Shown here one piece after another: positions 23,350 through 58,237 of a stretch of 64,000 nt of DNA. The DNA comes from Albidovulum aestuarii (GTDB lineage Bacteria > Pseudomonadota > Alphaproteobacteria > Rhodobacterales > Rhodobacteraceae), in NCBI RefSeq assembly GCF_029961185.1, contig NZ_JASBQQ010000001.1:662552-726551 (forward strand), written 5' to 3'. A program made the position numbers and the translations under genes. The first letter of the stretch is position 1. Every line of letters begins with the position of its first letter. The notes below the pieces were generated by a model. The model searched no databases and was not told the origin of the DNA. It saw only the letters and a list, made by a program, of their open reading frames with translations.

Positions 23350-23693
23350 TGTGCGACCTCACTAAGCGCGACCGTATCTACGGGATCGGTAATCGGCGGC
23401 AACGCGACTGCAGGATAGCGCACTTCAGATATACCGCCGAACTGCCGGGGATCGAGCGGTAGAAGACCAAGGCGTTCGAAGTTGATATCCGCCAGTCCGC
23501 GCAACCGGTCGGGTCGGTTGAGATAGGCCCATTCCGCCCTCAGAACGCCAAGGCTTTCGCGATACTGACCAATTTCGCGCTGAAGCTCGCGTATCTCGGC
23601 AAGTTCGGCCTGGGTCCTGTAGTTTTCACGATACGCCCAGAAGGCAAGCGCCATGACGGCGGCGGCGGCAAGGACAACGATCAGGCTGCGCAT
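23346..23693 (-). CDS. ftsL: Cell division protein FtsL
   Basis: FtsL is a short bitopic protein that forms the FtsQLB complex. The 115 residues have a hydrophobic N-terminal segment (LIVVLAAAAVMALAFWAY) followed by a leucine/arginine-rich coiled coil (RTQAELAEIRELQREIGQYR) and the WAYLNRPDRLRGLA end motif typical of alphaproteobacterial FtsL. Assignment rests on position between rsmH and ftsI as well as on the layout. It has a 1-base overlap with rsmH. Confidence 0.93.
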   Translation of the reverse strand: MRSLIVVLAAAAVMALAFWAYRENYRTQAELAEIRELQREIGQYRESLGVLRAEWAYLNRPDRLRGLADINFERLGLLPLDPRQFGGISEVRYPAVALPPITDPVDTVALSEVAQ

Positions 23694-24685
23694 CAGTTTC
23701 GCCCTTCAAGCGCGGGTTTCGGAAGGCCGAGCGCGGCGCGGTCGACTGAACCGGCGGGCGCGTCGGTACGGATGCCGACGCGCAGTTTTGCAGACCGCGC
23801 GCGCGGATTTTCTGCAAGCTCGTCATCGTCAGGCCCGGCGGCTTTGCGGGTCTTGAGCGTGAAGGCCGGGGTCACCTGCTCACGCGCAGGGGCATAACGG
23901 CTGCCCTGCCCCTTGCCGCCCGAGCGAAGCTGGAAGAATCGCTTGACGATGCGGTCCTCCAACGAATGGAACGTGACAACGGCAAGCTGCCCGCCGGGCT
24001 TCAGCGCCCGTTCAGCCGCCTCCAGCCCCTCGGCTAACTGCCCAAATTCGTCGTTCACTGCGATCCGAATCGCTTGAAAACTGCGCGTTGCGGGATGGCT
24101 CTGCCCCGGCTTCTGGCGCGGCAGGCACCGTTCGATGACCGAGGCCAGTTCCAACGTCCGCGAAAACGGCCGCGCAGCGACAATGGCGCGGGCGATCCGG
24201 CGCGACGCGCGTTCCTCACCATAGTGATAGAGGATATCGGCGATCTCGGACTCGGAAGCCTCGTTCACCAGGCCGGCCGCTGTCGGGCCGCTATCGCCCA
24301 TGCGCATGTCAAGCGGGCCATCTTTCTGGAAGGAAAAGCCCCGCTCGGCCTGATCGAGCTGCATCGACGACACGCCGAGGTCGAGGACGACGCCATCGAC
24401 AGGTTCACCAGCCAAGCGGTCCATATCGGAAAACGTGCCTTCGACCAGTTTCAGCCGGTCGCCATATTGCCCGGCCCAGTCTTCGGCCATGCGAAATACC
24501 ATCGGATCGCGGTCGATGCCAATGACCCTGTCCGCCCCTGCCTCAAGCAGTCCGCGCGAATAGCCTCCCGCGCCAAAGGTGCCGTCGATCCATGTGCCGG
24601 AGACGGGTGCGACCGCCTCTAGGAGCGGCCGCAACAAAACCGGGATATGGGGGGCGTCTGATATGCGGGCGGCGGCAGCAGCCAT
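23693..24685 (-). CDS. rsmH: 16S rRNA (cytosine1402-N4)-methyltransferase RsmH
   Basis: RsmH (MraW) methylates C1402 in the 16S rRNA decoding centre with S-adenosylmethionine. The 330 residues carry [13 protein letters not shown], the SAM-binding [44 protein letters not shown] and [17 protein letters not shown]. It lies three bases after mraZ, the standard first pair of the dcw cluster. Confidence 0.97.
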
Positions 24686-24688
24686 CTC

Positions 24689-25192
24689 TCACCCTTTCGG
24701 CAGGGATGGCAGGAGGCTTCTTGGGTCGAAGTCCTCGGGATACTGATCAGCGAGCTTCGCGCTCCGCCGTGCGGCCTTAGCCTCGTAGGCTTCGGGATTC
24801 CAGATGCGGAAATAATCACCGGCCGAGATGAAGAACGCCTCACTCGTCAGTCCGATCTTGTCGCGGTATTTCTGCGGGATGGTCAGGCGGCCGTCATCAT
24901 CGATCTGGGCCTCAAACGACTGACCGTACATCAGTTCCTCAATCATCAGACGTTCGGGCGAGCCGCGCTGCATCAGGCCGATCTGGTCGTCCATCTCGTG
25001 GATCGCTTCCATGGAGAAGACGTCGAGCCAGTTCTGGCTTTCCGGTCCGTAGACAATGACGATGTTGGGGCGGAGGCCCTCAGTCCAGTCGGGGTCGGAG
25101 GCCTCGATCACGCGGCGGAACGGCGCGGGGATGGAAACGCGACCTTTCGCGTCCACCTTAAACGTATCCGATCCTCTGAACCTGCGTGCCAA
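24689..25192 (-). CDS. mraZ: Transcriptional regulator MraZ
   Basis: MraZ is a ring-forming DNA-binding protein that controls the dcw promoter. It has two AbrB-like half domains with the signature twice: VDAKGRVSIPAPFRRVI (about residues 12-28) and DDDGRLTIPQKYRDKI (about 100-115). The start is placed at a TTG at 25192, giving LARRFRGSDTFKV as first residues (167 in total). An AAGGAG sits nine bases ahead, and no ATG is close to the conserved start. A longer ATG frame from 25303 would run through the leader hairpin and adds non-conserved residues. The neighbouring TGGGA repeats are candidate binding sites for this protein. Confidence 0.95.
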   Translation of the reverse strand: MARRFRGSDTFKVDAKGRVSIPAPFRRVIEASDPDWTEGLRPNIVIVYGPESQNWLDVFSMEAIHEMDDQIGLMQRGSPERLMIEELMYGQSFEAQIDDDGRLTIPQKYRDKIGLTSEAFFISAGDYFRIWNPEAYEAKAARRSAKLADQYPEDFDPRSLLPSLPKG

Positions 25193-25454
25193 GGGCCCGC
25201 GCTCCTTACCTGTCCCCTCCCCCCGAAATCCGCCTTTGGACCCCTGAAACGACAACGGCGGATTGGGCTGCTGCCACTGCCCAATCCGCCGCCCTCGTCC
25301 CATCTCTGGGTTGTCCGGCTGCGCATGCCACCTGGGGGGATGTCTGCTCGCTCACGCGCCGGATCTTTGGTTCGATGAAAGCGGGTGCCTGTATGAAACC
25401 TGACTTTCGCCTTTTGGGTCTTGATGCCCTTGAGCCCGTCCTCATCGGTGTATT
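25193..25454 (-). promoter_or_regulatory. mraZ leader region
   Basis: This gene-free region lies between the first TGGGA repeat group and the mraZ start. It contains a 13-bp perfect inverted repeat (25256-25268 and 25279-25291, listed separately), a single TGGGA on the minus strand near 25300 and the AAGGAG ribosome site. No promoter hexamers can be assigned with confidence. Confidence 0.4.
25256..25291. promoter_or_regulatory. 13-bp perfect hairpin in the mraZ leader
   Basis: CGGCGGATTGGGC at 25256-25268 and GCCCAATCCGCCG at 25279-25291 are perfect inverted copies around a 10-base loop. The stem is GC-rich with no T run on either side, so it is not a classic terminator. It lies about 65 bases before the mraZ start and would be in the transcript if the promoter is upstream. 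It could act as an attenuator, a stabilising 5' stem or a protein site. Confidence 0.6.
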
Positions 25455-26897: not shown

Positions 26898-27023
26898 GAT
26901 GTCTGTCCTTCAGGTCGGACCCAACATGCCCGCTTTCCGGGCAAGGACAAGGGGGACATTGCCGCTTCTTTACGCAGACCCGTAAGCTACCGCTAGGGAA
27001 GGTAAATTTCCCGTGATGCGCTA

Positions 27024-27079
27024 TGCAATTGCTGCATGGCAGCATTGATCGCGGCAGGTATTGTGCAATTGCAGCATGG
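27024..27079. promoter_or_regulatory. Paired TGC-rich operator-like repeat upstream of DUF1127 gene
   Basis: TGCAATTGCTGCATGG at 27024-27039 recurs as TGCAATTGCAGCATGG at 27064-27079, 15 of 16 identical and exactly 40 bases apart. The first copy contains the palindrome TGCTGC-ATG-GCAGCA (27030-27044), the second TGCAATTGCA (27064-27073). The repeats lie in the promoter region of the DUF1127/small-RNA unit. They resemble the TGC-rich boxes of the PHB regulator PhaR, but the identity of the factor is a guess. Confidence 0.5.
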
Positions 27080-27143
27080 GGTCCATGTTAACGGCAACGG
27101 CGCCACAGACGGTGCCAATGATCCGAATGATGAGGCAAGAAAA

Positions 27144-27359
27144 ATGGCTTATTCAACTGTTACCCGTGGCACCCATATCGGCCTCGCCGACCGTGTCGCC
27201 GCTTTCTTCACCGCGCTCCGCGACAGCCGTCAGCGTTACCGCATGTATCGCCAGACCGTTAAGGAATTGTCGGTGCTGAGCGACCGCGAACTGCACGACC
27301 TCGGCCTGCACCGCTCTTCGATCGACGCGATCGCGCTGGAAGCGGCCTACGGCAAGTAA
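27144..27359 (+). CDS. DUF1127 small protein (CcaF1-like)
   Basis: A 71-residue basic protein starting MAYSTVTRGTHIGLADRVAAF, with the DUF1127 pattern in its C-terminal half: RYRMYRQTVKELSVLSDREL, then HDLGLHRSSIDAIA. The start at 27144 is preferred over 27036 because GAGG lies upstream at good spacing and the extra N-terminus covers the operator repeats. In Rhodobacter sphaeroides the homologous gene heads a transcript with CCUCCUCCC small RNAs, and its product binds RNA. The same layout is present here, so a stress-induced RNA-binding role is likely. Confidence 0.9.
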   Translation: MAYSTVTRGTHIGLADRVAAFFTALRDSRQRYRMYRQTVKELSVLSDRELHDLGLHRSSIDAIALEAAYGK

Positions 27360-27399
27360 GTTTCTCTGCGGGCCTCCTCCTCCCCCGGTCTGCGGAACA

Positions 27400-27431
27400 T
27401 GCGGCGGCTCCTCCTCCCTGAGGCCGCCGCA
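27400..27431 (+). ncRNA. CCUCCUCCC hairpin (motif 2)
   Basis: A perfect 9-bp stem TGCGGCGGC/GCCGCCGCA (27400-27408 and 27423-27431) presents the motif in a 14-base loop. A second small hairpin GGACCC-gaa-GGGTCC follows at 27438-27452, giving the two-hairpin form known for this RNA family. Confidence 0.8.
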
Positions 27432-27462
27432 GAGATCGGACCCGAAGGGTCCACGACGATGC

Positions 27463-27491
27463 GCCTCCCCCTCCTCCTCCCTGGGGTTGGC
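27463..27491 (+). ncRNA. CCUCCUCCC hairpin (motif 3)
   Basis: A weaker stem: GCC-t-CCCC (27463-27470) against GGGG-tt-GGC (27483-27491), with the motif in the loop. Confidence 0.6.
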
Positions 27492-27494
27492 GAT

Positions 27495-27543
27495 GTGAAA
27501 TGCGGCGGTGGCGTCCTCCTCCCTGCCACTGCCGCATCTTCAC
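27495..27543 (+). ncRNA. CCUCCUCCC hairpin (motif 4)
   Basis: A long stem made of GTGAA/TTCAC, ATGCGGC/GCCGCAT and GTGGC/GCCAC, broken by single mismatches, with the motif at 27515-27523 in the loop. Confidence 0.8.
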
Positions 27544-27550
27544 CCTGATC

Positions 27551-27580
27551 CGGCTGACCCACCTCCTCCCGGGACAGCCG
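27551..27580 (+). ncRNA. CCUCCUCCC hairpin (motif 5)
   Basis: The stem CGGCTG/CAGCCG (27551-27556 and 27575-27580) is extended by CCC/GGG after one mismatch, and the loop at 27561-27570 is ACCTCCTCCC. Confidence 0.8.
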
Positions 27581-27581
27581 C

Positions 27582-27634
27582 GATGAAGATGGGCGGCGCC
27601 CCTCCTCCTCCCTGAGGCGCCGCCCGTTTTCATC
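27582..27634 (+). ncRNA. CCUCCUCCC hairpin (motif 6)
   Basis: The stem GATGAA/TTCATC plus GGGCGGCGCC/GGCGCCGCCC (27591-27600 and 27616-27625) is the strongest of the array, with the motif at 27604-27612 in the loop. Confidence 0.85.
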
Positions 27635-27681
27635 CGGATTACGACGGTCCCTCTCTCCCCCTTGGGATCGTGGTTGCGACT

Positions 27682-27709
27682 GGCGGTGCCTCAGCGGCAC
27701 CGCCTTTTT
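27682..27709 (+). terminator. Rho-independent terminator of the DUF1127/small-RNA unit
   Basis: A perfect 9-bp stem GGCGGTGCC/GGCACCGCC (27682-27690 and 27696-27704) with a 5-base loop is followed by TTTTT on the plus strand. It closes the CCUCCUCCC array. Confidence 0.9.
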
Positions 27710-27724
27710 CGTTTCACGGATTTA

Positions 27725-57352: not shown

Positions 57353-58237
57353 ATGATTGATCCGGCCCAGCTTCGAACCCTCTCCGCGATCCTCGACGCC
57401 GGTTCGTTCGAGGCTGCCGCCGCGCGTCTCGGTGTTACCCCCTCGGCGATCTCGCAACGGCTGAAGGCATTAGAGGACCGTCTCGGCACTGCTCTTATCC
57501 TCCGTGAACAACCTGCACGAGCGACCGAGGCGGGTCTGCGCCTCGCCCGCCATGCCGAGGATATGCTGCTTCTGGAACAGGGGCTGATGGCTGATCTTGG
57601 TGCTGGACTGGCGGTGGATCGGCCCGTGGTGCGGATCGCGGTTAATGCCGACAGCCTCGCGACCTGGGTCCTGCCCGCGCTGACTGCGGCACCGGATCTG
57701 CTCTTTGACCTCGTCATCGACGATCAGGACCATTCCGCCGACCTGCTCAGACGCGGCGAGGTGCAGGCGGCCGTCACCGCCCATGCCGCCCCGGTTACGG
57801 GCTGCGATTGCCATCCGCTCGGCGCGCTGCGCTACATCGCCACTGCCAGCCCGGACTTCGTCGCACGCTGGTTCCCGGACGGAATCACTGCGGACAGCCT
57901 TGCCCGCGCCCCGGCGATGACCTTCAATCGCAAGGACCGTCTGCAACGCGACTGGGCCACGGCCATCACCGGGAAACGCGTCACTTTACCCAGCCACCAC
58001 CTCGCCTCAAGTCAGGGGGTTGTCGAAGGTGCCCAGCTCGGCCTCGGTTGGGGCATGAACCCCGAACCACTCGTGCGCGACGACATCGCCCAAGGCCATC
58101 TTGTAGCGCTCGCCCCTGACAATCCGCTCGACACATCCCTTTACTGGCAGGTGAACCGCCTGACCACCCGCGCGCTGACTCCGCTCACATCCGCGATCCG
58201 CAAGGCCGCAAAAACCAGCCTCCTCCCCGCGCCTTAA
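57353..58237 (+). CDS. argP: LysR-family regulator, ArgP/LysG type
   Basis: 294 residues. The N-terminal winged helix-turn-helix reads MIDPAQLRTLSAILDAGSFE, then AAARLGVTPSAISQRLKALE. The C-terminal periplasmic-binding-like domain contains VNADSLATWVLPAL and GWGMNPEPLV, matching ArgP/IciA. It should activate the divergent exporter gene when bound to arginine or lysine. Confidence 0.93.
   Translation: MIDPAQLRTLSAILDAGSFEAAAARLGVTPSAISQRLKALEDRLGTALILREQPARATEAGLRLARHAEDMLLLEQGLMADLGAGLAVDRPVVRIAVNADSLATWVLPALTAAPDLLFDLVIDDQDHSADLLRRGEVQAAVTAHAAPVTGCDCHPLGALRYIATASPDFVARWFPDGITADSLARAPAMTFNRKDRLQRDWATAITGKRVTLPSHHLASSQGVVEGAQLGLGWGMNPEPLVRDDIAQGHLVALAPDNPLDTSLYWQVNRLTTRALTPLTSAIRKAAKTSLLPAP

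Follow-up and report, generated by a model that had tools for sequence, protein, structure and literature searches.

Does the series of hairpins that follows a DUF1127 gene in Albidovulum aestuarii form an expanded small-RNA array, or an ordinary member of a known family? Within the 64-kb stretch of DNA analysed here (the window), the original prediction had proposed an enlarged cuckoo/CcsR array in the place where Rhodobacter sphaeroides carries four such RNAs. We have examined the array itself, its neighborhood, its hairpins in relatives and its size across the family.

The motif array and its conservation

Six exact copies of CCTCCTCCC are found on the forward strand within 240 bases (27376-27612), the first located 16 nt past the stop codon of the DUF1127 gene and the others following at spacings of 34, 63, 42, 47 and 42 bases (Table 1). 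The rest of the 64-kb window holds one further copy, at 58219, while shuffled versions of the full stretch average 0.83 copies, with a maximum of four, and never reach seven. The predicted clustering of six motifs behind this gene is thus confirmed. The region 27361-27722 folds at -190.4 kcal/mol (z = -8.5 against shuffles) and places six of six motifs in hairpin loops. Five clear loops had been proposed; the loops are indeed present, but the fold counts all six, of which the third is the weakest. When each hairpin was compared with shuffled flanks, five were matched in strength by only 0-2 of 1000 shuffles. Taken alone, the third (27473) is marginal, with 61 of 1000 shuffles as strong; its stem (helix 6) covaries in relatives. 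The array is closed by an intrinsic terminator, as had been stated. Two hairpins come in addition to those originally described: a small one lacking the motif (27438-27452) and a seventh with a degenerate loop (27641-27674). A scan of the window with Rfam 15 returned one tRNA only, and the array matches no curated family.

Table 1 Features of the ccaF1-like locus, in positions of the window
Feature	Positions	Strand	Basis and details
Conserved upstream block, candidate RpoHI/RpoHII-type promoter	27021..27089	+	TTG 27061-27063, CCATGTT 27083-27089
ccaF1-like gene, 71-aa DUF1127 protein plus stop	27144..27359	+	PF06568 E=8.3e-13; TAA 27357-27359
CcsR unit 1, 5' hairpin	27365..27396	+	motif 27376-27384; count, fold, covariation, shuffled-flank test
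CcsR unit 1, 3' hairpin	27400..27431	+	motif 27410-27418; count, fold, covariation, shuffled-flank test
Small motif-less hairpin separating units 1 and 2	27438..27452	+	GGACCC-GAA-GGGUCC; fold, covariation helix 5
CcsR unit 2, 5' hairpin	27462..27492	+	motif 27473-27481; weakest of six; helices 6-7
CcsR unit 2, 3' hairpin	27495..27543	+	motif 27515-27523; 19 bp; fold, covariation, shuffled-flank test
CcsR unit 3, 5' hairpin	27551..27580	+	motif 27562-27570; count, fold, covariation, shuffled-flank test
CcsR unit 3, 3' hairpin	27582..27634	+	motif 27604-27612; ~20 bp; fold, covariation, shuffled-flank test
Degenerate seventh hairpin, loop CUCUCUCCCCC	27641..27674	+	fold; exact motif here in several congeners
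Intrinsic terminator	27682..27709	+	9-bp hairpin 27682-27704 plus T tract

Comparison within the genus provides insight into what is conserved in these hairpins. Nineteen arrays, from the window and 18 congeners, were aligned with MAFFT by sequence alone. The stems of the window are paired in 82% of the cells of this alignment, and the original prediction, which had staked itself on stems being conserved with compensation in relatives, stands: both sides have changed in 60 of the 106 pairs, a number that falls to 37 when columns are shuffled and to 26-38 in slid controls. Covariation scores 0.238 versus 0.142. As the structure was taken from the window sequence, these comparisons somewhat favour the unslid version. 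An alignment of closer relatives (n=6) agrees on most measures. The small hairpin that lacks the motif (helix 5) has four of its six pairs changed on both sides. Identity to the window is 95% in the loop motif, 71% in the stems and 54% in the linkers. Of the 982 motifs in 123 arrays of the family, 981 occupy a loop with a closing stem of 5 bp or more; with shuffled flanks the share is 77%. The array is of the cuckoo type, with CCUCCUCCC presented in hairpin loops on variable stems.

The counterpart of ccaF1-CcsR1-4

In R. sphaeroides, the gene for the DUF1127 protein CcaF1 (71 aa) shares its transcript with CcsR1-4 (PMC10253847). The locus in the window resembles this ccaF1-CcsR1-4 locus (RSP_6037) of Rhodobacter (Cereibacter) sphaeroides in its 71-aa DUF1127 gene, in the two-hairpin CCUCCUCCC units of its 3' UTR and in its terminator, and the two also have in common a divergent apbC upstream and the conserved upstream block. 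Judged from sequence, with apbC, equal protein length and the upstream block as evidence, it is the ortholog of ccaF1-CcsR1-4; apbC and the upstream block bear out the claim that the array lies in the same place in both organisms. The divergent apbC is found at 26 loci, that of R. sphaeroides included. A match to the protein is present in 22 of 22 genus genomes, and in 20 of them it is a full-length ortholog followed by 2-8 exact motifs.

The upstream block spans about 70 bp and is nearly invariant in an alignment of 15 genus members with R. sphaeroides. It contains a conserved TTG-N19-CCATGTT and an inverted repeat, TGCTGC-ATG-GCAGCA. The former appears compatible with the published RpoHI/RpoHII control (PMC10253847), an assignment made by conservation and spacing only. 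The block is conserved far beyond what is expected for a promoter alone, and a second copy of GCAGCAT is present; the inverted repeat is possibly the operator of some activator of ccaF1.

Two observations concern the surroundings. The dcw cluster genes mraZ and rsmH lie on the reverse strand at 23693-25303, about 2 kb away from ccaF1. The mraZ leader of R. sphaeroides yields the sRNA UpsM; a scan of the leader here from 25250 onwards called no terminator-like site. Some congeners (L053, L054 and L055) possess a second DUF1127 paralog, behind which stands just one CCTCCTCCC hairpin, some 56 nt past the stop codon.

Two-hairpin units and their number in relatives

The unit in which the array should be counted is the pair of hairpins. 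In R. sphaeroides one CcsR consists of two motif hairpins, and RS0680a has two stem loops (PMC3927594); the six motifs of the window therefore amount to three units. The primary array shows six motif hairpins, the predicted processed unit two. Gaps between motifs in the family have a median of 40 at odd-numbered and 56.5 at even-numbered positions. Of 203 isolated units with two motifs, 91% have the stronger hairpin on the 3' side (mean -25.6 kcal/mol, versus -19.2 for the 5' hairpin), and in each of the three pairs of the window the 3' member is likewise the stronger. For cuckoo RNAs at large, Reinkensmeier and Giegerich reportedly described in 2015 two to four adjacent hairpins family-wide. 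The likeness among hairpins 2, 4 and 6 of the window extends outside the motif (z 4.6, 5.4 and 2.1), and the odd-numbered hairpins show no such likeness, which fits an old duplication of the two-hairpin unit. Of the local duplication and divergence that had been suggested, the old duplication of units survives and a recent one does not.

The size of the array was compared with that at 109 family ccaF1 loci, which were picked by protein and not by motif. They carry 0 to 17 motifs with a median of seven, and 64 of them carry more than six. L005, a locus selected by motif, has 26 motifs and L014 has 14; across one family the motif count runs from 0 to 26. The array at L005 (G165:C1:333449-336547), behind one DUF1127 gene, is by far the largest seen and is built on a three-motif repeat roughly 140 bp long. 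In a tree of ApbC, the clade of the window has 4-6 motifs, the shortest arrays of the neighborhood, and most neighbouring clades have 6-8. Near-identical units may be undercounted in short-read assemblies, a loss for which the units of the window are too diverged. Six loops are an ordinary, slightly small number for the family and no expansion: the count in related genomes that the original prediction had called for gives arrays of equal or larger size in relatives, and the label "expanded" fails against the family median of seven and the 14 motifs of R. sphaeroides 2.4.1.

The latter count comes from an assembly (G051) that we recognised as 2.4.1 because 4.1 kb of its sequence are 100% identical to plasmid pB of that strain. 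Since one CcsR has two motif hairpins, four CcsRs should give eight motifs; the 14 motifs at the orthologous place equal seven units. Two of these units are diverged and five follow at a spacing of about 115 bp, two of the five differing at 1 of 115 positions. At this locus (L288/L278, C4 near 692460) the last five of the seven two-hairpin units are partly near-identical, and the literature names CcsR1-4. The difference between seven units and the four described is due either to collapse in an older assembly or to variation between stocks. The window differs from both numbers, with three intact units and a fourth that has probably decayed.

Evidence for this fourth unit is found downstream of unit 3. 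Four congeners (G010, G298, G301 and G307) have the motif in both the equivalent of the seventh hairpin and the terminator hairpin. The degenerate seventh hairpin of the window is probably what is left of a fourth unit's 5' hairpin, and the terminator hairpin is probably the decayed 3' hairpin of that unit. On the simplest reading there would have been four ancestral units, of which the fourth decayed in the clade of the window; unit gain in the other clades is a conceivable alternative. The decay was judged by reading the alignment of the genus arrays. An automated search of the terminator hairpin for the motif proved too loose, as the window scored positive through GTTTTC inside hairpin 6, and the alignment reading is thus what the decay rests on.

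Proposed mode of action and its alternatives

Orthology, anatomy, stem covariation, loop invariance and unit structure are established by this analysis, and the locus is very probably a ccaF1-CcsR operon, in which RNase E would cut a stress-induced co-transcript into RNAs of two hairpins each, with anti-Shine-Dalgarno loops that would block ribosome-binding sites. A single transcript from a stress promoter would encode CcaF1, a small RNA-binding DUF1127 protein, and would hold in its 3' UTR three intact CcsRs and a fourth whose motifs have probably been lost. A CcsR combines a weaker 5' hairpin with a strong, GC-rich 3' hairpin, both displaying CCUCCUCCC as a mimic of the anti-Shine-Dalgarno tail of 16S rRNA. 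RNase E, assisted by CcaF1, would cut the linkers and free the units, the loops of which would base-pair with purine-rich ribosome-binding sites and, under stress, lower the translation or stability of a common set of mRNAs. As in R. sphaeroides, the units would depend on Hfq and be turned over by PNPase. Promoter type, processing, the participation of Hfq and CcaF1 and the mode of action are in this model carried over from R. sphaeroides, where the release of single units depends on RNase E and CcaF1 (PMC8625941, PMC7866481).

Targets were predicted in the genome of the window by a pattern search for perfect complements before start codons. In this genome search GGGAGGAGG is not enriched before start codons (7 sites versus 8 in the control), and one of the seven sites is the array's own complement; real targeting therefore probably uses shorter pairing. 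A plausible candidate target is an ABC solute-binding protein gene (SBP_bac_5; L292, G000:C4:36044), in which a perfect GGGAGGAGG precedes the ATG by five bases; the duplex is predicted at -24.5 kcal/mol. The main predicted targets of NfeR1 are ABC-transporter mRNAs. NfeR1, together with SmelA075 and SmelA099 of Sinorhizobium, belongs to the cuckoo family/alpha-r14, which has the same CCUCCUCCC loops on highly variable stems (PMC3927594). They differ in that hairpins number three or four in the rhizobial RNAs, and that a promoter of its own is described for NfeR1, while the present array resides in a DUF1127 3' UTR. SisA-D of Caulobacter crescentus are similar in being several sibling sRNAs with a common anti-Shine-Dalgarno 10-mer motif, a likeness drawn from description; unlike the units here, those siblings are differentially transcribed.

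Other roles for the array have been weighed against the processed operon. It is improbable that the array, either uncut or as a pool of units, serves as a multivalent sponge that titrates CcaF1, Hfq or another RNA, in place of silencing mRNA by mRNA. The transcript does also encode CcaF1, which in R. sphaeroides binds RNA (PMC10253847), and arrays in some relatives reach 26 motifs; nothing in the sequence requires titration, however, and the published R. sphaeroides work has released units that modulate metabolism (PMC8625941). A mainly cis role, in which the hairpins protect the 3' end of the ccaF1 mRNA and terminate it while the loops have no targets in trans, is less probable still. The array does lie in the 3' UTR, a terminator closes it and strong stems would stabilise the mRNA, but the loop is conserved above the stems, which end protection does not need, and the CcsRs of R. 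sphaeroides are separate, Hfq-dependent RNAs acting on other mRNAs (PMC10253847, PMC7866481). A recent lineage-specific expansion with hairpins diverged in target choice, as originally predicted, is scarcely credible: the stems differ among hairpins and hairpins 2, 4 and 6 are paralogous, but arrays in relatives are equal or larger, orthologous hairpins align across the genus and thus predate it, and the six motifs are identical with the stems alone differing, which leaves different targets for each member without support.

The processed ccaF1-CcsR operon remains our reading, and the locus is a real and well-conserved one of a known kind, smaller than usual. It adds a further species to those with the ccaF1-CcsR stress system and corrects how such arrays are counted, as two hairpins make one sRNA. 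The turnover of unit number across the family is the more interesting by-product. A speculative extension, which we regard as doubtful, is that unit number acts as an evolvable dosage dial: units would be quickly gained, made uniform and lost, and from one stress promoter a lineage-tuned molar excess of identical anti-Shine-Dalgarno loops would dampen the translation of many mRNAs at once and not of a few dedicated targets. The number of hairpins varies widely behind an orthologous gene, and the family thereby offers a natural dosage series for anti-Shine-Dalgarno sRNA arrays.
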